Source: Salipiger sp. H15 (GTDB lineage: Bacteria; Pseudomonadota; Alphaproteobacteria; Rhodobacterales; Rhodobacteraceae). Taken from it: a DNA stretch of 64,000 nt. Both the position numbers and the translations under genes were made by a program. Shown here one piece after another: positions 68 to 8,606 of the stretch (its first letter is position 1; each line of letters starts with the position of its first letter). Below the pieces are notes generated by a model that saw only the letters and a program-made list of their open reading frames with translations, was not told the origin of the DNA and did not search any database. The stretch spans positions 1,656,001 through 1,720,000 of the forward strand of contig NZ_CP123384.1 in NCBI RefSeq assembly GCF_040409955.1, read 5' to 3'.

Positions 68-718
68 TCACCGGGCCGCGGAGATCCCGCCGCCCAGCTT
101 GGCGAAGTGCGCGAGACATGCCTCCATGCCGATCACGTCGGCGTATTTCGCGTTCATGTCGAAGAGGTTGGCCTCGTGCGGGGCCGCGTGGCGGTCGCCG
201 CAGGCCTCGCGCACCACCAGCGTGCGGAAGCCGTGGCTCATGGCATCGACGCAGGAGGCGCGCACGCAGCCCGAGGTGGTGAGCCCGGTCAGGATCACGC
301 TGTCACAGCCCATGGCTGTGAGGGTCGAGGCGAGCGACGTGCCGAAGAAGGCCGAGGGGTACTGCTTCGAGACCACCAGCTCGTCGGCCTCGGGCACCAG
401 CCCTTTGGCGAATTCGGCGGTGGCGCGGCCGGGCAGGAAGGCCCCGAGCGGCGCGGCCTTCTCGAAGAAGCGCCCGCCGTCGATGCCGCTCGGGTGCAGC
501 GCGATGCGGGTGTGGATGACCGGCACGCCCGCCGCCCGCGCCGCCGCCCGCAGCTGCAGCGCGGCGGCGAGCGCGGTCACCGCGCCCTCGCCGGCGAAGA
601 GCGGGCAGGCCGCGTCGTAATAGGCGTGGGCGAAGTCGATCAGCAGCAGCGCCGGGCGGGCCCCGAAGCCGACCGAGCGGTCGTAGACCCCCGCGTAATT
701 CTCCGCCGCGCCAGTCAT
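68..718 (-). CDS. Cysteine hydrolase of the isochorismatase / N-carbamoylsarcosine amidase family (RutB-like role)
   Basis: 216 residues. The isochorismatase-like triad is visible: Asp28 (LLLIDFAHAY), Lys118 (VVSKQYPSAF) and the nucleophile Cys151 (TSGCVRAS). The stretch around LTGLTTSGCVR and the later LFDMNAKYADV resemble N-carbamoylsarcosine amidohydrolase and maleamate amidase more than E. coli RutB, although RutB belongs to the same superfamily. The enzyme would hydrolyse a ureido or amide bond in a ring-opened intermediate. It is the last gene of a tight minus-strand operon; its start lies one base beyond the flavin reductase stop, with an AAAAGG ribosome site inside that gene. The exact substrate is inferred only from context. 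Confidence 0.85.
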   Translation of the reverse strand: MTGAAENYAGVYDRSVGFGARPALLLIDFAHAYYDAACPLFAGEGAVTALAAALQLRAAARAAGVPVIHTRIALHPSGIDGGRFFEKAAPLGAFLPGRATAEFAKGLVPEADELVVSKQYPSAFFGTSLASTLTAMGCDSVILTGLTTSGCVRASCVDAMSHGFRTLVVREACGDRHAAPHEANLFDMNAKYADVIGMEACLAHFAKLGGGISAAR

Positions 719-719
719 C

Positions 720-1211
720 TCAGGCCTTTTCCGTGCGGGTCAGGCTCTCGAACTTGCCCTCGTGGTAGAGCAGCGGGTCCGAGGGGCTGCCCCAGTCGGT
801 GACCGCGACCACCTCGCCGATGAAGATCGTGTGCGTGCCGAAGCTGCTCTTCTGCGCCGGGCGGCAGTCGAAGCTCACCTGCGCGCCACGGAGGGCAGGG
901 GCGCCGGTCTCCAGCTCGGACCAGTCGCCCATCTCGAAGCGGGTCTCGCGGTCCTTCGGCATGGCGAAGCGCGTCGCGATGTCCTGCTGCCCGCGCGAGA
1001 GCACGTTGACGCAGAAGGCCCGCGCCTCGCTCAGGTGCTCGTGGATCGAGGCCGAGGCGTTGACGCAGATCAGCAGGCTCGGCGGCTCGGCGCTGAGCGA
1101 GGTCACCGCGGTGGCGATCAGGCCGTGCCGCACGCCGTCGCACTCGCAGGTGATCAGCGAGACGCCGGCGGCAAGGCGCCGCATGCCGGATTTGAAGTCG
1201 TTGGGGTCCAT
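720..1211 (-). CDS. Flavin reductase-domain protein (RutF/HpaC-like)
   Basis: 163 residues covering a single flavin-reductase (FMN-binding split barrel) domain. It has the family pattern FKSGMRRLAAGVSLIT near the N-terminus, LSAEPPSLLICVN in the middle and the conserved FGTHTIFIGEV near residue 130. Such proteins supply reduced FMN to two-component monooxygenases. Lying in one operon with the RutA-like oxygenase, it most plausibly plays the RutF part. The gene abuts the amidase stop with no spacer, which suggests translational coupling. Specificity for FMN or FAD cannot be read from the sequence. Confidence 0.88.
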   Translation of the reverse strand: MDPNDFKSGMRRLAAGVSLITCECDGVRHGLIATAVTSLSAEPPSLLICVNASASIHEHLSEARAFCVNVLSRGQQDIATRFAMPKDRETRFEMGDWSELETGAPALRGAQVSFDCRPAQKSSFGTHTIFIGEVVAVTDWGSPSDPLLYHEGKFESLTRTEKA

Positions 1212-2498
1212 TCAGTCGTCCTTTCCTTCCTTCTCGGCGGGCCGGGAGGGGGCCAGCGCCGGGGCAATCTGGGCGGCGAGCCGGATCAGCCGGCTGTCCT
1301 GCGCCCGGGCCGCCACGAGCTGCACGCCGAGCGGCAGCGGATCCGCGCGCGCTGGAACATGAATGCAGGGCAGTTGCATCGCCGTCCAGAGCGCATTGAA
1401 CTTCGGCTTGCCGGCGCCGCGTCCGGGCGGGGCGAAACCGGGGGCGGCGGGGGCGATCACCGCGTCATAGGGGGCGGCCAGCGCCTCGAAGGCGCGGCGG
1501 TGATCGGCGAGCCGGTCGTAGGCCTCGAACATCTGCCGGGCGCTATGACCCTCGCTGCGGGCCGCGCGGTTCAGGAAATCGCGGTGCACCAGCGGCCCCT
1601 TGTGCATGAGGTTGCGCATGGCGGCGGCGCCCTCGCTCATCTGCACGCAGCGGTGCAGCGCGTCGAGGTCCGCCATCTCGGCGGGAAGCTGCAGCCATTC
1701 GGTGTCCGCCACGGCGTCGAGCCGTCCGGGCAGGCTCTGCATGAGGTCCATCATCTCGGGCGCCAGCTCGTCGGCGTAGGGGGTGAGGCAGAGCGCCAGC
1801 CTCGGCCGGGCAGCGGGCGTTCCGGTCTCGGGGAAGCCGTAGAGATCGCCGAGCAGCGCGAGGTCGTCGTAGGAGCGCGCGTAGAGCCCCACCGTGTCGA
1901 GGCTGGCGGCGTAGAGCTTCACCCCCTCGGTCGAGATCAGCCCCCAGCTCGGCTTCATCGCCGGGGTGCCGCAGAACGAGGCCGGGCGGATGGTCGAGCC
2001 GCCGGTCTGGGTGCCGAGCGCCAGCGGCACGTGGAAATCGGCCACGGCGGCGGCCGAGCCCGCCGAGGAGCCGCCGGAGCTGCGCGCGGGATCGGCCGGG
2101 CAGCCGGTCATTGCGTTGCGCCCGGCGGCGGCGAACTCGGTGGTGTCGGTCTTGCCGAGGATGATCGCCCCCGCCGCCCGCAGGATCTCGACGCAGGGCG
2201 CGTCGTCGCTCGGGCGGCGGGAGCCGTAGAGAGGGGAGTTGTGCGTGGTCGGCAGCTCCGCCGTGTCGATCACGTCCTTGATGCCGACGGGAATGCCGGC
2301 CAGCGGGCGCGGGTCCGAGGCGGCGATCGCCGACGCCTCGGCCTCGGCGCGCGGGTTGAGGCTCAGCCAGGCGCGGATCTCGCCGTCGCGCGCGGCGATG
2401 CGGGAAAGGCAGGCGCGCACGAGGTCGCGCGGCGTGAGCCGCCCCTCGCGCATCAGCCTGCGGGCGGTGGTGGCGTCGAGCCGGCTGGGGTCTGTCAT
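1212..2498 (-). CDS. Amidase signature family hydrolase
   Basis: 428 residues with the Ser-cisSer-Lys triad of amidase signature enzymes: Lys74 in VGIKDVID, the Gly/Ser-rich loop SGGSSAGSA with cis-Ser near 144-145, and nucleophile Ser168 in TQTGGSTI. Members hydrolyse linear amides, carbamoyl compounds or Glu-tRNA. It sits between rutA and the flavin reductase, so it probably acts on a product of ring opening or on an amide that must be removed first. No amidase of this type occurs in the E. coli rut operon, so this is a departure from the canonical set. No convincing Shine-Dalgarno is seen at this ATG. The substrate is unknown. Confidence 0.88.
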   Translation of the reverse strand: MTDPSRLDATTARRLMREGRLTPRDLVRACLSRIAARDGEIRAWLSLNPRAEAEASAIAASDPRPLAGIPVGIKDVIDTAELPTTHNSPLYGSRRPSDDAPCVEILRAAGAIILGKTDTTEFAAAGRNAMTGCPADPARSSGGSSAGSAAAVADFHVPLALGTQTGGSTIRPASFCGTPAMKPSWGLISTEGVKLYAASLDTVGLYARSYDDLALLGDLYGFPETGTPAARPRLALCLTPYADELAPEMMDLMQSLPGRLDAVADTEWLQLPAEMADLDALHRCVQMSEGAAAMRNLMHKGPLVHRDFLNRAARSEGHSARQMFEAYDRLADHRRAFEALAAPYDAVIAPAAPGFAPPGRGAGKPKFNALWTAMQLPCIHVPARADPLPLGVQLVAARAQDSRLIRLAAQIAPALAPSRPAEKEGKDD

Positions 2499-2598
2499 CG
2501 GAGGGGTCTTGATCGTCCGTGCGGGTCGTGTTGGCGCGGCCGCCCCGACAGGGAGCGTCGGGCAGGCCGCGCCGGGGCAGGCCCGGGCGGGCCGCCGG

Positions 2599-3678
<1,080 letters not shown>

Positions 3679-3710
3679 GTGAACTCTCCTGCTGGACGTA
3701 TCGTTTTTCT

Positions 3711-3722
3711 ATGTCCGAACTT
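3711..3722. promoter_or_regulatory. Degenerate GntR-type operator, 33 bases before rutA
   Basis: ATGTCCGAACTT is a diverged copy of the palindrome AAGTCCGGACTT found at five other places in the locus. Its position just upstream of the rutA start would suit repression. Confidence 0.45.
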
Positions 3723-3783
3723 GGTCGGGCCTAGCCTCACTTGGCCGGGGCAACCCTGTTCAGGTCCAGCGGATGTTCATGGG

Positions 3784-3797
3784 AAAGTCCGGACTTT
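3784..3797. promoter_or_regulatory. Perfect 14-bp palindromic operator upstream of rutA
   Basis: AAAGTCCGGACTTT is a perfect palindrome about 106 bases before the rutA start. The same core is found in front of the regulator, the transporter and the second operon. It has the size and symmetry expected for a dimeric GntR/HutC regulator site. Confidence 0.7.
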
Positions 3798-3801
3798 TGC
3801 G

Positions 3802-3815
3802 AAAGTCCGGATCCC
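3802..3815. promoter_or_regulatory. Second operator copy next to the rutA palindrome
   Basis: AAAGTCCGGATCCC repeats the left half of the perfect site, with the right half diverged. Its centre is 18 bases from that of the adjacent palindrome, giving a tandem pair. Confidence 0.55.
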
Positions 3816-3886
3816 TGATGATTTTCTGTGCAGCGCCGCCCGGCACTGATCCCTGCTTGGGCAGCCTTTGGGCGCCGCGCCGCGGC

Positions 3887-4663
3887 TCACTCGGCGGAAA
3901 GATTCGTCCGGTAGGCGAAGCTGTCGTCGGGCGAGGTCTGGATCGCATATTCCAGCAGCCGCCCACCCGAGGCGAGGTAGCGCCGGGTGATGCGCAGCCC
4001 GATGGTGCCTTCGGGCCGGTTCAGCTCGGCGCAGACCTCGGGGCAGATCGCGACGGCGCGGATCTCCTGCTGGATCTCCTCGATCCGCTCGCCGGTGCGC
4101 TGCTCGATGAGCTGGAAGAGCGACGAGCGCAGCACCGTCATGTCCGCCACCACGTCCTGCGCGATCGGGTCGAGATAGACCTCGTTCCAGCAGAACGGCG
4201 TCGGCTCGCCGATGAAATGCCGCGGTCCGGCCATGTAGATCAGGCGTTTTCCGGGGCGGCAGCCGATCTCGGCCGCGGTCTTGCCGCGCACCTCGCGCCG
4301 TTCCTTCTGCCGGATGAAGAACTCGCTCTGGCTGGCGAACTCGAAGAGGTCGTCGCGCGAATCGTTGCGGAAACGGTCGCGCCAGTCGGGTTTCGACGCC
4401 TCGACGCGGGTGCCGACGCCCTTGCGCGCCGCCAGCATGCCGCGCTTGCGCAGCTGCGCGATGGCCTGGCGCACGGTGTGGCGGCTGACGCCCAGCTGCA
4501 CGGCGAGCTCGGCCTCGGGCGGAAGCAGGCTGCCGACCGCACGCTCGCCCGAAACGATCTGGCGTTCGAGCCGGTGCGCCACCTGCAGGTAGAGCGGTGT
4601 CGAGGTCCCGGCGCCCTGCAGCTCCTCCGGCGCCGTGTCCTGATCGCTCTCATGGCCTGTCAT
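3887..4663 (-). CDS. GntR/HutC-family transcriptional regulator
   Basis: 258 residues. Winged helix at about residues 23-90 (STPLYLQVAHRLERQI, then SRHTVRQAIAQLRKRGML with the recognition helix), followed by a UTRA effector domain from about 110 to 250. The frame is open further upstream, but the start chosen is MTGHESDQD because AGGGGGGAGGAG precedes it; the longer form would run through two operator copies. It is divergent from the MFS transporter and very likely controls the whole locus through the AGTCCGGACT sites, including one 43 bases before its own start. The ligand is unknown, probably the substrate or an early intermediate. Confidence 0.9.
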   Translation of the reverse strand: MTGHESDQDTAPEELQGAGTSTPLYLQVAHRLERQIVSGERAVGSLLPPEAELAVQLGVSRHTVRQAIAQLRKRGMLAARKGVGTRVEASKPDWRDRFRNDSRDDLFEFASQSEFFIRQKERREVRGKTAAEIGCRPGKRLIYMAGPRHFIGEPTPFCWNEVYLDPIAQDVVADMTVLRSSLFQLIEQRTGERIEEIQQEIRAVAICPEVCAELNRPEGTIGLRITRRYLASGGRLLEYAIQTSPDDSFAYRTNLSAE

Positions 4664-4705
4664 CTTCGCTCCTCCCCCCTGCTTGCCGTGGACGATATTC
4701 TTGCC

Positions 4706-4723
4706 AATAAGTACGGACTTATT
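4706..4723. promoter_or_regulatory. Operator in the regulator/transporter intergenic region
   Basis: AATAAGTACGGACTTATT is an 18-base near-palindrome with mismatches only near the centre. It lies 43 bases before the GntR start and suggests autoregulation. Confidence 0.6.
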
Positions 4724-4760
4724 TAAGGGTTCTCCGCACCGCCCACCCACTGGCCCACTC

Positions 4761-4773
4761 AAGTCCGGACATT
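4761..4773. promoter_or_regulatory. Operator immediately before the MFS transporter start
   Basis: AAGTCCGGACATT ends six bases before the transporter ATG. Its centre is about 52 bases (five helical turns) from that of the preceding operator, a spacing compatible with cooperative binding. Confidence 0.6.
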
Positions 4774-4779
4774 ACGCGA

Positions 4780-6018
4780 ATGCGCGAGAGCTTGTCGACC
4801 CAAGGCGCCCCGGCCGCGTCCTGCCTCTGGATCAGGCCGCTGGCGGTCATGACGCTGGTCCAGGTGGCGGCCACCTGCAGCATCCTCGCGCTGACCGCCC
4901 TCGCGCCCGAGGTCGCTGCCTCGCTCGGCGTCGGCGCGCACTGGATCGGCTACCAGATCAGCCTCATCTACTTCTCGGGCATCTTCGCCTCGGCGTTCGC
5001 CGGCGCGGTGGTCGAGACGCTGCGGGCCGAGCGGGTGATCCGCCTCGAGCTGGCGATCTTCGTGCTCGGCCTGCTGATGCTCGCAAGCGGACAGCCGGTG
5101 CTGATGGTGCTGGCCTCGCTGCTCTTCGGCATCGGCTACGGGCTCAACAACCCCGCCTCCTCCGAGATCCTGCACCGCCACACGCCGCGGCGGCAGCAGA
5201 GCCTCGTCTTCTCGATCAAGCAGAGCGGCGTGCCGCTGGGCGCGGTGCTGGCGAACGTGATGATGCCGGCGCTGCTGGTCGCGCTCGGGGTCGGCTGGCA
5301 GGGGGCGCTGGCGCTGGCCGCGCTGCTGCCCGCGGGGCTGCTGCTCTGGTCGCTGGGGACGGACAGCCCGGAACCGGCGCAGCGCGGCGCCGCCTCGGAG
5401 GGCATCTGGCGCCGGATGCTGGGCGAGCAGCGGGCGATCCTGTCGAGCCCGCGCCTGCGCACGCTGGCGATCCTCGGCTGCCTCTACTCGGCGCTGCAGC
5501 TGATCGCCACCGCCTTCATCGTCGTCATGCTGGTCGAGCACGGCTGGACGCTGGTCGCGGCGGGCAGCGTCGCGGCGGCCTCGCAGCTGCTGGGCGCGGT
5601 GGGGCGCGTGGCCTGGGGTGTGGCGGCGGACCGGCTGGGCGGGTTCCGGACGCTGGCGCTGATCGGCCTCATCGCGGGTGGCATCCTGCTGTCGCTCAAC
5701 TGGGTCGGCAGTTTCCCGGCGGCGCTGCAGGCGGTGCTCCTCGCCGGCCTCGGCGGCGTGGCCTCGGGCTGGAACGGCGTCTTTCTCGCCGCCGCCGCGC
5801 GCACCGCGCCCGAGGGCAAGGTCGGCGCCAACACCGGCGCGCTGCTGGTCTACACCTTCCTCGGGGTGATTATCGGCCCGAGCTGCTTTGCCTTCATCTA
5901 CGGCATCGTCGGCGACTATGGCCTCGGCTTCGCGCTGTTCTCCTCCGTGGGCTTCCTCGGGGCGGCTCTGTCGTGGCGGCAGATGCGCGCGCAGGCCCGA
6001 GAGACCCGCGCCGCATAG
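4780..6018 (+). CDS. MFS transporter
   Basis: 412 residues, almost wholly hydrophobic, with about twelve predicted membrane segments; the first begins near LAVMTLVQVAATCSIL. Family features include FSIKQSGVPLGAVLANV in the fourth/fifth helix region and a charged loop (AADRLGGFR) near residue 285. It probably imports the compound degraded by the locus and so replaces the RutG uracil permease of the classical operon. The ATG follows an operator by six bases and has no Shine-Dalgarno, so the mRNA may be leaderless, or a later start such as 4849 may be used (this would remove the N-terminal tail). Substrate unknown. Confidence 0.88.
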   Translation: MRESLSTQGAPAASCLWIRPLAVMTLVQVAATCSILALTALAPEVAASLGVGAHWIGYQISLIYFSGIFASAFAGAVVETLRAERVIRLELAIFVLGLLMLASGQPVLMVLASLLFGIGYGLNNPASSEILHRHTPRRQQSLVFSIKQSGVPLGAVLANVMMPALLVALGVGWQGALALAALLPAGLLLWSLGTDSPEPAQRGAASEGIWRRMLGEQRAILSSPRLRTLAILGCLYSALQLIATAFIVVMLVEHGWTLVAAGSVAAASQLLGAVGRVAWGVAADRLGGFRTLALIGLIAGGILLSLNWVGSFPAALQAVLLAGLGGVASGWNGVFLAAAARTAPEGKVGANTGALLVYTFLGVIIGPSCFAFIYGIVGDYGLGFALFSSVGFLGAALSWRQMRAQARETRAA

Positions 6019-6425
6019 GTCCGCTTCGGCCGGGCGCGGCCCGGTTGCTGACTATCCGGGCACTTGGCGCCCGACGCGCGCATTCCGCCCGTCATCGCGT
6101 CGCGACTCGTTGACTTGGCTCTGCATAAGTCCGGACAATGTTCCCCAGCTCCCGACCTCCCCGGGGGCAGTGAACAGGGCATGGCCACCGGAACGCTGCA
6201 GATGCTGACCCTCCTCGAGACCGGGCCGACGAGCCGGACGCGTATCCCCCTCCGCTCCGGGCGGCGCCTGATTTCGCGGCACGACCCCCGCGCCGGAGAT
6301 CACCTCGCGGGCAGTTCCCGCCGCCGCGCCGCATTTCTCCCCCGGCCGTCTGGCGCTCGCCGCCCTGCCGGATCAGCAGTTAGCCGAGACAGCCGCATCG
6401 GAGCGGCTGGGAAAGGACCTCTCAC
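6019..6425. other. Intergenic region carrying the promoter of the second operon
   Basis: About 400 bases without a convincing gene. CCGGGC-GCG-GCCCGG at about 6032-6046 may end the transporter transcript, although no T-run follows. One operator/promoter lies at 6110-6139. A GGAAAGGA ribosome site stands before the next ATG. The remaining 280-base leader shows no riboswitch I recognise; short open frames there have random composition. Confidence 0.5.
6110..6139 (+). promoter_or_regulatory. Promoter with overlapping operator for the amidase-rutE operon
   Basis: TTGACT at 6110-6115, an 18-base spacer and GACAAT at 6134-6139 form a sigma-70-like promoter. The operator ATAAGTCCGGACAAT spans 6125-6139 and covers the -10 element, the layout expected for repression by the GntR protein. 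Confidence 0.55.
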
Positions 6426-6626
6426 ATGGAACAGGAGCTGACCGCCCTGCTGGGCCGCGCCCCGTCGGAGGGCGAGCTTGCCATCGCGCGGGACCAGCGG
6501 AAGCGCGTCGAGGCGGGCATCTTCGCGAGCCCGCTGCTGGCGCTGCCGGGTGACGGCCCGCTGCGCCCCTCGGGCCGCTGCGGCGCGCTCGCGGCGACCG
6601 ATCCCTTCGCGGAGGGCGGCGCATGA
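6426..6626 (+). CDS. Small GatC/AtzG-like (DUF4089-type) partner of the amidase
   Basis: 66 residues, well led by GGGAAAGGA. Its TGA overlaps the amidase ATG as ATGA. The pattern (short helical start, a leucine/alanine-rich middle ending in LLALPGDG, then an acidic-aromatic tail ATDPFAEG) recalls the DUF4089 / AtzG proteins that precede AtzE-type amidases and that resemble GatC wrapped around GatA. I infer a small subunit that stabilises the amidase. The family link rests on length, position and weak pattern similarity; alternatively it is an unrelated small protein. Confidence 0.6.
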   Translation: MEQELTALLGRAPSEGELAIARDQRKRVEAGIFASPLLALPGDGPLRPSGRCGALAATDPFAEGGA

Positions 6627-7981
6627 GCCTCGTGACCATCTCCGGCATCCTGGGCCGGCTCGCCACGGGCGAGACCACCGCGACCGCGCTGCTTGCCGAG
6701 CTGCAGTCCCGCATCGCCGCCCGCGGCACGCTCTCGCCCTTCCAGCGGCTCGAATGGGAACGCGCATACGAGCAGGCCGACCTGTCCGACCGCGCCCGCC
6801 GCGAGGGCAAGCCGCAGGGACCGCTCGCCGGGGTGCCGATGGCGCACAAGGACATGTTCGACCGCAGAGGCTCGACCGTCGGCTTCGGCGCGCACCCCTC
6901 CGCGCGCAAGACCGCGACCGCCACCGCGCCGGTGCTCGATCGCCTCGACCGCGCCGGGGCGGTGGACTTCGGCCGGCTGCAGATGTCCGAGTTCGCCATG
7001 GGCCCCACCGGGCAGAACCACCACCACGGCATGCCCGAGAACCCGGCGGTCGCGGGCGGCGTGCCCGGCGGCTCGTCGAGCGGCTCGGGCGTCGCCGTCG
7101 GCATGGGGCTGGTGCCCGCGGCGCTCGGCTCGGACACCGGCGGCTCGATCCGCGTGCCCGCCGCCTGCAACGGCGTCGTCGGCTTCAAGCCCGGGCTCGG
7201 CGTGGTGCCGCTCGAGGGCGCCATGCCGCTCAGCTGGACGCAGGACACGATCGGCCCGCTTGCCGCCTCGGTGGACTGCGCGCGGCGGGTGCTCTCGGTG
7301 ATCTCGGGCGGCAAGGTCCGCGCCCATGCCGAGACCCCGCGCAAGCTGCGCCTCGCCTTCGACCGCGGCGGTTTCGTCGAGGGCATCTCGGACCGGATGC
7401 GCGCCGCGCTGGCCGAGACCCGCGGCGCGCTGGCGGGGCAGGGGCATGACCTCGTCTCGCTCGACATGGGCTTCTTCGCCGATCTCACCGAGCCCGCCAA
7501 CGTCATCGCCATCGCCGAGGCCGCGACGGTCCACGCCGACCGGCTGCGCGACTGCCCCGAGACCTACGGCACCCAGGTGCGCGCGCGCCTCGCGCAGGCC
7601 GCCGGCATCTCCGCCCAGGCCTACCTGCGCGCCCGGCAGATCCGCGAGATCGCCCTTGCCCGCACCGAAGCCGAGATCTTCGCCGCCGCCGACCTGGTGA
7701 TCCTGCCCGGCCTCGCCGACGTGGCGCCCCAGGCCGAGGCACTCGTCCATGCCGAGGGCGCCGAGATCGCCCGGATGATCTCGGGCATGACCGGCTTCAC
7801 CCGCCCCGGCTCGATCCTCGGCCTGCCGGTGCTCTCGCTGCCCGTGGCCTGGACATCGGACGGCCCGCTCAGCCTCCAGATCATGGGGCCGCGCGGATCG
7901 GAGGATCTCATCGCCGATCTCGCGCAGACCCTTGAAACCACGCGCCAGCCGGTGGATGCCGTACTGGCGGAACTTGCATGA
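6623..7981 (+). CDS. Amidase signature family hydrolase (AtzE-like)
   Basis: 452 residues with the amidase triad: Lys76 ([10 protein letters not shown]), cis-Ser in the loop GGSSSGSG near residues 151-153, and nucleophile Ser175 ([16 protein letters not shown]). It resembles GatA and AtzE (1-carboxybiuret hydrolase) more than the first amidase in the locus. Coupling to the 66-residue gene upstream supports a two-subunit enzyme. rutE follows 19 bases later, so its product should feed the same degradation route, probably releasing ammonia or carbamate. Substrate not determinable from sequence. Confidence 0.88.
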
Positions 7982-8000
7982 CGACCGAAAGGCACGACAG

Positions 8001-8606
8001 ATGAAAGACCTCCTCCCCACCGGAGCGCTGGACCAGGACGCGCTCGACACGCTCTTCCTCGAGGCGCGCAGCCAGAACGGCTGGCAGGACAAGGACATCC
8101 CCGAAGAGGTGCTCGAGCAGCTCTACGACCTGGTGAAGATGGGCCCGACCTCGGCCAACTGCTCGCCCGCGCGCTTCGTCTTCATCCGCAGCAAGGACGC
8201 CAAGGAAAAGCTCTCCCCCGCCATGTCGAGCGGCAACCGCGACAAGACCATGGCCGCGCCGGTCACCGTCATCGTCTGCCAGGACATGGAGTTCTACGAC
8301 AAGCTCGGCGAGCTCTTCCCGCATGTCGACGCCAAGCCCTGGTTCACCGGCTCCGAGACGATGATCACCGAGACCGCCTTCCGCAATTCCTCGCTGCAGG
8401 GCGGCTACCTGATCATGGCGGCGCGCGCCCTCGGCCTCGACTGCGGCCCGATGTCGGGCTTCGACGCGAAACTCGTCGAGGAGACCTTCCTCGCCGGCAC
8501 CAGCTGGAAGGTGAACTTCATGGTCAACCTCGGCTACGGCGAGCCCTCCAAGGTCTTCGGCCGCCTGCCGCGCCTCGCGATGGAAGACGCCTGCAAGGTG
8601 CTCTGA
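8001..8606 (+). CDS. rutE: RutE-like malonic semialdehyde reductase (nitroreductase family)
   Basis: 201 residues. The nitroreductase-fold protein matches E. coli RutE closely: [11 protein letters not shown] near the start, [13 protein letters not shown] near residue 49, APVTVIV, the [10 protein letters not shown] stretch near 127 and [11 protein letters not shown] near 150. RutE reduces toxic malonic semialdehyde, the end product of uracil degradation, to 3-hydroxypropionate. The start is set at MKDLLPTG, behind AAAGG; the frame is open upstream but overlaps the amidase. Together with RutA this is the strongest evidence that the locus degrades a pyrimidine-like ring to a C3 semialdehyde. Confidence 0.9.

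Follow-up and report, generated by a model that had tools for sequence, protein, structure and literature searches.

RutA cleaves amide bonds by flavin-N5-peroxide chemistry, as described for uracil and thymine, and is encoded in E. coli within the rutABCDEFG operon. The locus described here lies in the first 8.6 kb of a 64-kb stretch of the genome of the marine-type bacterium Salipiger sp. H15 (6.1 Mb; contig NZ_CP123384.1, positions 1,656,001 to 1,720,000, hereafter the window). It shares with the E. coli operon a RutA-family oxygenase and a flavin reductase and, presumably, the use of a cysteine hydrolase in the second step and of RutE in the last. It differs in that the window harbors no RutB above the model cut-off and no RutC, RutD or RutG, and in that its RutA falls into a different clade. 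In addition, it encodes a GntR-type regulator, two amidases, a short open reading frame (ORF), a transporter of the major facilitator superfamily (MFS) and, in 10 of 14 loci of this type, an ATP-binding cassette (ABC) importer of the CUT2 type. The locus works like Rut, yet membership in rut fails on RutB, on RutC, RutD and RutG at the locus, and on the clade of its RutA. It is apparently a conserved, separately regulated RutA-paralogue locus, and we consider it rather probable that it forms a self-contained regulon paralogous to rut, for the breakdown of a cyclic ureide or imide distinct from plain uracil.

Two other kinds of systems resemble parts of the locus. In the catabolism of cyclic imides, hydantoins and creatinine, ring opening by enzymes such as imidase or HyuAB is followed by hydrolysis of the half-amide or carbamoyl acid by a cysteine hydrolase of the N-carbamoylsarcosine amidohydrolase (CSHase) branch. 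The same order of steps may apply here, and relatives of the importer are found beside HyuAB or PuuE-like genes; the ring opener of the locus is, however, an O2-dependent flavoenzyme and not a hydrolase. Clusters containing atzG-atzE are described in PMC6219798 for the cyanuric acid operon of Pseudomonas ADP and for Bordetella and Achromobacter, where they include a regulator, a monooxygenase and a flavin mononucleotide (FMN) reductase. Compared by description only, all of them share with the locus an AtzE-like amidase (here AMD2) and a short ORF directly upstream (here SMALL), and those of Bordetella and Achromobacter also the monooxygenase, FMN reductase and regulator. In contrast to these clusters, AMD2 scores far below the AtzE cut-offs and SMALL has no significant match in Pfam, NCBIfam or the PDB.

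The earlier note on this DNA had taken the locus for a rebuilt rut operon. Since rutABCD are kept elsewhere in the genome (G000), on contig C2, the locus is an additional system paralogous to rut instead. The C2 RutA is 62% identical to the RutA of the window (RutA2). RutA (699.7 bits), RutC (238 bits) and RutD (251 bits) of the C2 operon score above their cut-offs, and RutB (375 bits) is 2.5 bits short of its cut-off of 377.95. Upstream of C2 rutABCD, a frame (L016:12924-13403) matches the end of IS256-type transposases with 58 bits (cut-off 150). A third RutA on C2, 55% identical to RutA2, reaches 490 bits compared to a cut-off of 498. It is encoded (L017, G000:C2:1-20000) together with a DHA2-type MFS protein, a cysteine hydrolase and a nitrilase-type hydrolase, and a TRAP transporter, a nucleoside hydrolase and a racemase-like gene are located nearby. 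A RutA/MFS/hydrolase set of this type is also found in L040, L070, L071, L136, L138 and L142, sometimes with adjoining second and third RutA.

A tblastn search of the window and of the adjacent 11 kb on its left side found no relatives of RutC, RutD and RutG, and the sole match to RutB in this region was a weak one to the cysteine hydrolase of the locus (CSH). Elsewhere in the genome, rutC and rutD are present on C2 and a RutG-like permease on C6. The latter, the best RutG-like protein of the genome (C6:136591), scores 535 bits, below a cut-off of 758.65 that all 14 control genomes, among them E. coli, missed as well. A stronger RutF match than the window reductase (211 vs 138 bits) is encoded at C3:63215, and the window RutE is the only RutE match of the genome at E 1e-30. 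The absence of rutC and rutD from the locus says little, because E. coli can use uridine without either of them (PMC8113886), and it was dropped as a sign of a new substrate. In the 11 kb left of the window (L015, G000:C1:1645001-1656000), frames judged by eye look like a TRAP transporter, an FAD monooxygenase and acyl-CoA-type enzymes.

RutA2 (2599..3678, minus strand) scores 616.4 bits with TIGR03612 (cut-off 498.3) and is 90-92% identical to the RutA proteins of Alloyangia pacifica and Salipiger mangrovisoli. RutA is uncommon: genomes with RutA matches at E 1e-80 number 6 of 248 in the family, 10 of 390 in the order and 27 of 398 in the phylum, the own genome being counted in each. For the RutA tree, 100 frames from 85 loci (>250 bits, at least 85% of the query covered) were reduced by 10 duplicates to 90 rows. 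The RutAs linked to RutB and RutC form one clade of 23 rows (support 100/99), of which 22 have RutB and RutC beside RutA and one (L129) has neither; L131, RutB/C-linked and on a long branch, falls outside. RutA2 is placed outside this clade. It belongs to a group of 14 rows (100/94), which is nested in one of 27 rows (96/90), and in none of these 27 rows was RutB, RutC or RutD encoded near RutA within the fetched flanks. A deeper fork uniting 32 rows is weaker (91/60). PMC6946804 names RutA once, among the five groups of a tree of flavin monooxygenases.

Active-site residues of 22 canonical rows (L129 and L131 left out) were compared with those of the 27 rows of the RutA2 clade, 64 rows being aligned in all. 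Numbering is that of E. coli RutA, with an offset of +19 that reproduces Thr105, Asn134, Trp139 and Phe224 as published in PMC10005588 and PMC7662398. Twelve positions passed the group-difference filter, four of which are completely fixed on both sides (22/22 vs 27/27), namely T105S, Q140A, C205A and N305T in the direction from canonical to RutA2 clade. Q140A adjoins Trp139. Thr105 and Asn134 coordinate O2 in RutA. T105S was also found in the other non-canonical rows compared (10 RutA3-type, 5 acetobacterial). Since Leu65, Asn134, Trp139 and Phe224 are invariant in 64/64 rows (Val136 almost so) while the four changes are fixed, the chemistry with oxygen appears to be preserved in changed surroundings. 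In Acetobacteraceae H6797 (L054, 4617-10753), ABC transporter genes, an arylmalonate-decarboxylase/EutA-like gene, a RutA (69%) and a CSH-type gene stand in a row.

The gene set around RutA2 was compared over 14 window-type loci, all from Rhodobacterales. The GntR regulator, the MFS transporter, an AMD1-type amidase and AMD2 are encoded in all of them, CSH in 13 (no CSH was found in L133), the flavin reductase and RutE in 12 each and a third amidase in six. None of GntR, MFS, CSH, AMD1, AMD2 and the importer was found above the same thresholds in 23 canonical-clade loci. Because the set recurs in 14 loci, it is more than chance and the partner genes are not bystanders; the extra amidases pointed out before are conserved. 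The new transporter of the earlier note was confirmed as a constant member, but it is not the sole transporter of this locus type. The CUT2-type importer consists of a Peripla_BP_4 binding protein, a double ATPase and a permease, encoded between the MFS gene and AMD2; it is lacking at the locus in the window and in the three loci most closely related to it, in which about 0.6 kb remains at this place. In 11 loci, AMD1 follows downstream of RutA2 on the same strand, with the third amidase in between in six cases. In L031, L033 and L035, an AMD1-type gene is found at the opposite end of the locus (41% in the two Paracoccus loci, truncated by the edge of the locus in L031). The importer, RutA2, CSH and an amidase are also combined in an actinobacterial locus (Goekera, L047).

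RutE was found above its cut-off in all five genomes with a window-type locus (G000, G188, G738, G859, G800) out of 12 genomes examined, and in none of the seven others, including G239 and G810, which have a canonical RutA. For this reason, malonic semialdehyde stays plausible as an end point of the pathway. RutB was detected at E 1e-60 only in G000, G239, G738, G859 and G810. In G188 and G800, the window-type locus includes RutE, its RutA is the only one of the genome, and no RutB was found at E 1e-60.

The two operons read earlier around a single regulator gene are supported, and operator-like sites can now be added. The GntR/UTRA regulator (3887..4663, minus strand; PF00392 and PF07702) and the MFS transporter (4780..6018, plus strand; PF07690) are divergently encoded, and the palindrome WWGTNCGNACWW occurs five times in the 64 kb, each time at this locus and at three promoter regions. 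Two copies are in the RutA2 promoter region (3711..3722 and 3785..3796, the latter reading AAGTCCGGACTT), one is between GntR and MFS (4709..4720), one immediately before the MFS start (4761..4772) and one in front of SMALL-AMD2-RutE (6127..6138). The pattern AAGTCCGGACWT with up to two mismatches has 16 matches in the window compared to 3.7 expected, ten of which are the five palindromic places (3711, 3785, 4709, 4761, 6127) counted on both strands. A narrower pattern, AWGTYCGKACWT, has three exact matches elsewhere in the whole genome. In the 14 window-type loci (262,768 bases), WWGTNCGNACWW was found 70 times, while 20 first-order simulations gave a mean of 1.4 and a maximum of 5; 66 of these 70 sites are located at most 420 nt upstream of a gene of the system. 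It was found once in 15 canonical rut loci and 18 times in 12 loci of the sister (13-row) RutA clade. In four Loktanella/Yoonia loci (L032, L034, L036, L038), CSH has moved beside RutE and has its own palindrome. The locus thus looks like one GntR regulon, and the palindromes are the probable binding sites of its GntR protein. These palindromes, SMALL, the rutABCD genes on another contig, the third RutA and the ABC importer of related loci had been overlooked in the earlier note; the eight genes it did name all have intact frames with plausible starts within the first 8.6 kb.

The presumed electron supplier of RutA2 is a flavin reductase (FLR, 720..1211, minus strand), which has RutF as its best model match (TIGR03615, 139 bits, cut-off 254.75). 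RutE (8001..8606, plus strand, ATG at 8001), a nitroreductase of the malonic-semialdehyde-reductase type, reaches 304.9 bits with PRK05365 (cut-off 152). RutA2 and RutE hence score above the cut-offs by which the rut pathway recognises RutA and RutE, and RutB fails at the locus, where CSH reaches 37.5 bits with the RutB model (cut-off 377.95). CSH (68..718, minus strand; Isochorismatase domain), a putative stand-in for RutB, belongs to the N-carbamoylsarcosine/maleamate amidohydrolase branch. Its nearest PDB entries are 26st (N-carbamoylsarcosine amidohydrolase) and 3ot4 (a putative isochorismatase, which we take to be the maleamate amidohydrolase NicF), with 41% and 42% identity to the respective aligned segments. 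Its Asp, Lys and Cys positions, presumably the catalytic ones of this branch, align with those of 1nba, 26st and 3ot4. In the CSH tree, which has several long branches, CSH of L144 groups with that of 13 window-type loci in a single 14-row clade (98/98) inside a 32-row group (100/99), the rest of which are mostly HyuAB- or lyase-linked relatives.

AMD1 (1212..2498, minus strand), an amidase-signature enzyme, is closest to malonamidase E2 among PDB entries (210 bits to 1obl). It keeps the Ser-cisSer-Lys positions of that enzyme and, in the motif GGSTIRPA, the Arg at Ser+3, which presumably corresponds to Arg158 and binds the carboxylate in malonamidase E2; with a similarity of only about 210 bits, malonamate hydrolysis by AMD1 is putative. 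An Arg at the nucleophilic Ser+3 was found in 31 of 33 AMD1 rows (duplicated species included); the pattern was not recognised in the other two, which represent a single Jiella locus fetched in duplicate. AMD2 and AMD3 rows with a recognisable pattern have an Arg at Ser+2 instead. AMD2 (6623..7981, plus strand), an AtzE-like amidase-signature enzyme, stays below both AtzE model cut-offs (257 vs 461 bits with PRK09201 and 235 vs 425.75 with the other). Its two best PDB matches are 2dc0 and 6c62, the latter labelled biuret hydrolase and presumably AtzE.

The start of AMD2 is overlapped by SMALL (6426..6626, plus strand), an ORF of 66 amino acids and a candidate for a GatC/AtzG-like partner. A counterpart is located upstream of AMD2 in all 14 window-type loci (within a longer frame in L042) and in three sister-clade loci; counterparts are about 55 to 83 amino acids long with uncertain starts, and the frame in L039 is a weak match. 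The predicted fold is a helix-loop-helix plus tail. No match was found in Pfam at E up to 1, in NCBIfam at E 1e-5 or with Foldseek at E <= 0.001. The sole PDB profile match, a phage head-to-tail adaptor, was insignificant (E 0.21), and an alignment to the transamidosome (VIA-align) was too weak to use. An assignment of SMALL to a known family was therefore dropped.

Relatives of CSH at E 1e-35 were found in 42 of 289 class genomes, the own one included. Of 20 such places fetched, several of the nearest encode HyuA/HyuB, PrpB-like lyases, LeuCD-like proteins or CoA-transferase-like proteins, and no recognised partner was found at the others. A relative of the importer's binding protein (46%) is encoded in the own genome at C2:421628. 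In this genome, as in G1074 and G959, importer relatives adjoin PuuE-like proteins, the two scored ones of which are below the PuuE cut-off, and others are located beside HyuAB. A fungal cyclic imide hydrolase is reported in PMC9304392 to resemble a protein that, among characterised ones, is closest to PuuE. By association in a few loci, importer relatives seem to keep company with other openers of cyclic amides. The importer's PDB relatives (best 4y9t, E 6e-8, then mostly sugar-binding proteins) were uninformative about its ligand. In L192 and L206 (G1004:C4), the CUT2 importer of RutA2 loci is found beside HyuAB, a PrpB-like lyase, PrpD-like and YrdC-like proteins, a GntR relative and two CSH-type genes. 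A RutA-like gene (42%) in L148 (G067:C47:12000-31900) is encoded together with LeuCD-like, PrpB-like, HyuAB and CSH proteins, which looks like a separate alkylmaleate-type ring pathway.

From these gene identities and neighbourhoods we infer the substrate class, the reactions and their order, the transport roles and the part of SMALL as follows. FLR would supply FMNH2 to RutA2, which would open the ring at an N-C(=O) bond by the flavin-N5-peroxide chemistry proposed for RutA. CSH may then replace RutB in removing a terminal carbamoyl or carboxamide group, AMD1, as a malonamidase-like enzyme, and AMD2, perhaps with SMALL as a subunit, could remove one or two more amides, and RutE would reduce the resulting 3-oxo acid. 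The GntR protein would act on the palindromes at the three promoter regions and be released by the substrate or an intermediate. Uptake might be mediated by the CUT2-type importer and the MFS protein in most relatives, and by the MFS protein alone at the locus in the window and its three closest relatives. As a tentative specification, the cyclic ureides or imides opened by RutA2 may bear an additional amide; one example would be uracil substituted at C5 by a carboxamide or a carbamoylmethyl group, as in modified wobble uridine bases. In this case, ring opening by RutA2 would be followed by removal of the amide beside the new carboxylate by AMD1 and of the carbamoyl group by CSH, and loss of CO2 would yield a semialdehyde for reduction by RutE.

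Several observations weigh against the reading as a regulon for a ring other than uracil. The known O2-pocket residues of RutA2 are mostly unchanged, and a substrate contact of the changed ones would be hypothetical. The palindrome is missing from 6 of 12 sister-clade loci, including L041 and L134, both of which have a GntR relative and the importer. The importer argument comes from few loci, the binding protein being found, apart from the own genome, in 3 of 289 genomes of the class. The correlation with RutE is not clean, because G738 and G859 (one genus) carry RutE in the canonical operon and have a window-type locus without it. In G188 and G800, the window-type locus could be the uracil pathway, since its RutA is their only one and RutB was not found at E 1e-60. 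These two genomes also speak for a second uracil/thymine pathway, in which RutA2 opens uracil or thymine, CSH takes the place of RutB, RutE forms 3-hydroxypropionate or its methyl analogue and the amidases serve conjugates or side reactions. RutA2 is above the RutA equivalog cut-off and RutE is present, RutC and RutD would be dispensable as they are for uridine use in E. coli (PMC8113886), and thymine is also cleaved by RutA (PMC7662398). Such a second pathway is nevertheless somewhat unlikely: both systems are kept in G000, G738 and G859, and G239 has a canonical and a sister-clade locus; the differences fixed in the RutA2 clade include Q140A beside Trp139; and no role in uracil breakdown is known for the two conserved amidase types or for the CUT2 importer, which is conserved in most loci.

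A maleimide-type ring, an unsaturated cyclic imide, would also suit part of the locus. RutA2 would convert it to a maleamate-like half-amide, which CSH would hydrolyse in the manner of maleamate amidohydrolase. This would agree with the 42% identity of CSH to the aligned part of 3ot4, with the HyuAB, PrpB-like lyases or LeuCD-like hydratases, possible handlers of (alkyl)maleate, beside several of the closest CSH relatives outside RutA2 loci, and with the RutA-like gene of G067 in such a set. A simple maleimide would, however, leave RutE and two further amidases without a role, and a hydratase or lyase of this kind was not seen at the window locus. With RutE and the amidases unaccounted for, this route is ranked as a rival only and appears improbable. 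An ordinary rut locus with bystander amidases is very improbable. RutA, a RutF-like reductase and RutE do occur together, and the equivalog model would name RutA2 pyrimidine utilization protein A. This explanation was rejected on the conservation of the amidases, CSH, GntR and MFS over 14 loci, on the palindromes shared by the promoter regions and on the position of RutA2 outside the RutB/C-linked clade. The earlier note had expected such a locus if RutA nested in the uracil clade, rutC, rutD and rutG were present elsewhere and the amidases varied freely among neighbours. While rutC and rutD are indeed present elsewhere and the RutG-like permease remains below its cut-off, RutA2 does not nest among the RutB/C-linked RutAs, and free variation of the amidases was not observed.

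The reading of the locus as a regulon paralogous to rut for another cyclic ureide or imide is therefore favoured. In the titles and abstract beginnings of Creative Commons-licensed PMC papers, no description of this RutA clade or locus was found. Loci of the RutA2 type are likely annotated as pyrimidine utilization, because TIGR03612 accepts RutA2 (616 bits) and nearly the third RutA (490 vs 498), and such labels mislead pathway reconstruction. If rings with an extra amide are indeed the substrates, RutA-family loci would make up a whole class of regulons for the catabolism of nitrogen rings, listed in databases under uracil use. Two handles, on the inducer and on a partner protein, are provided by the operator-like palindrome and by SMALL. 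The second, separately controlled gene set around a sister of RutA probably serves a different small nitrogen ring, and if a conserved sister clade has a regulon of its own, RutA chemistry would have been recruited for other rings.

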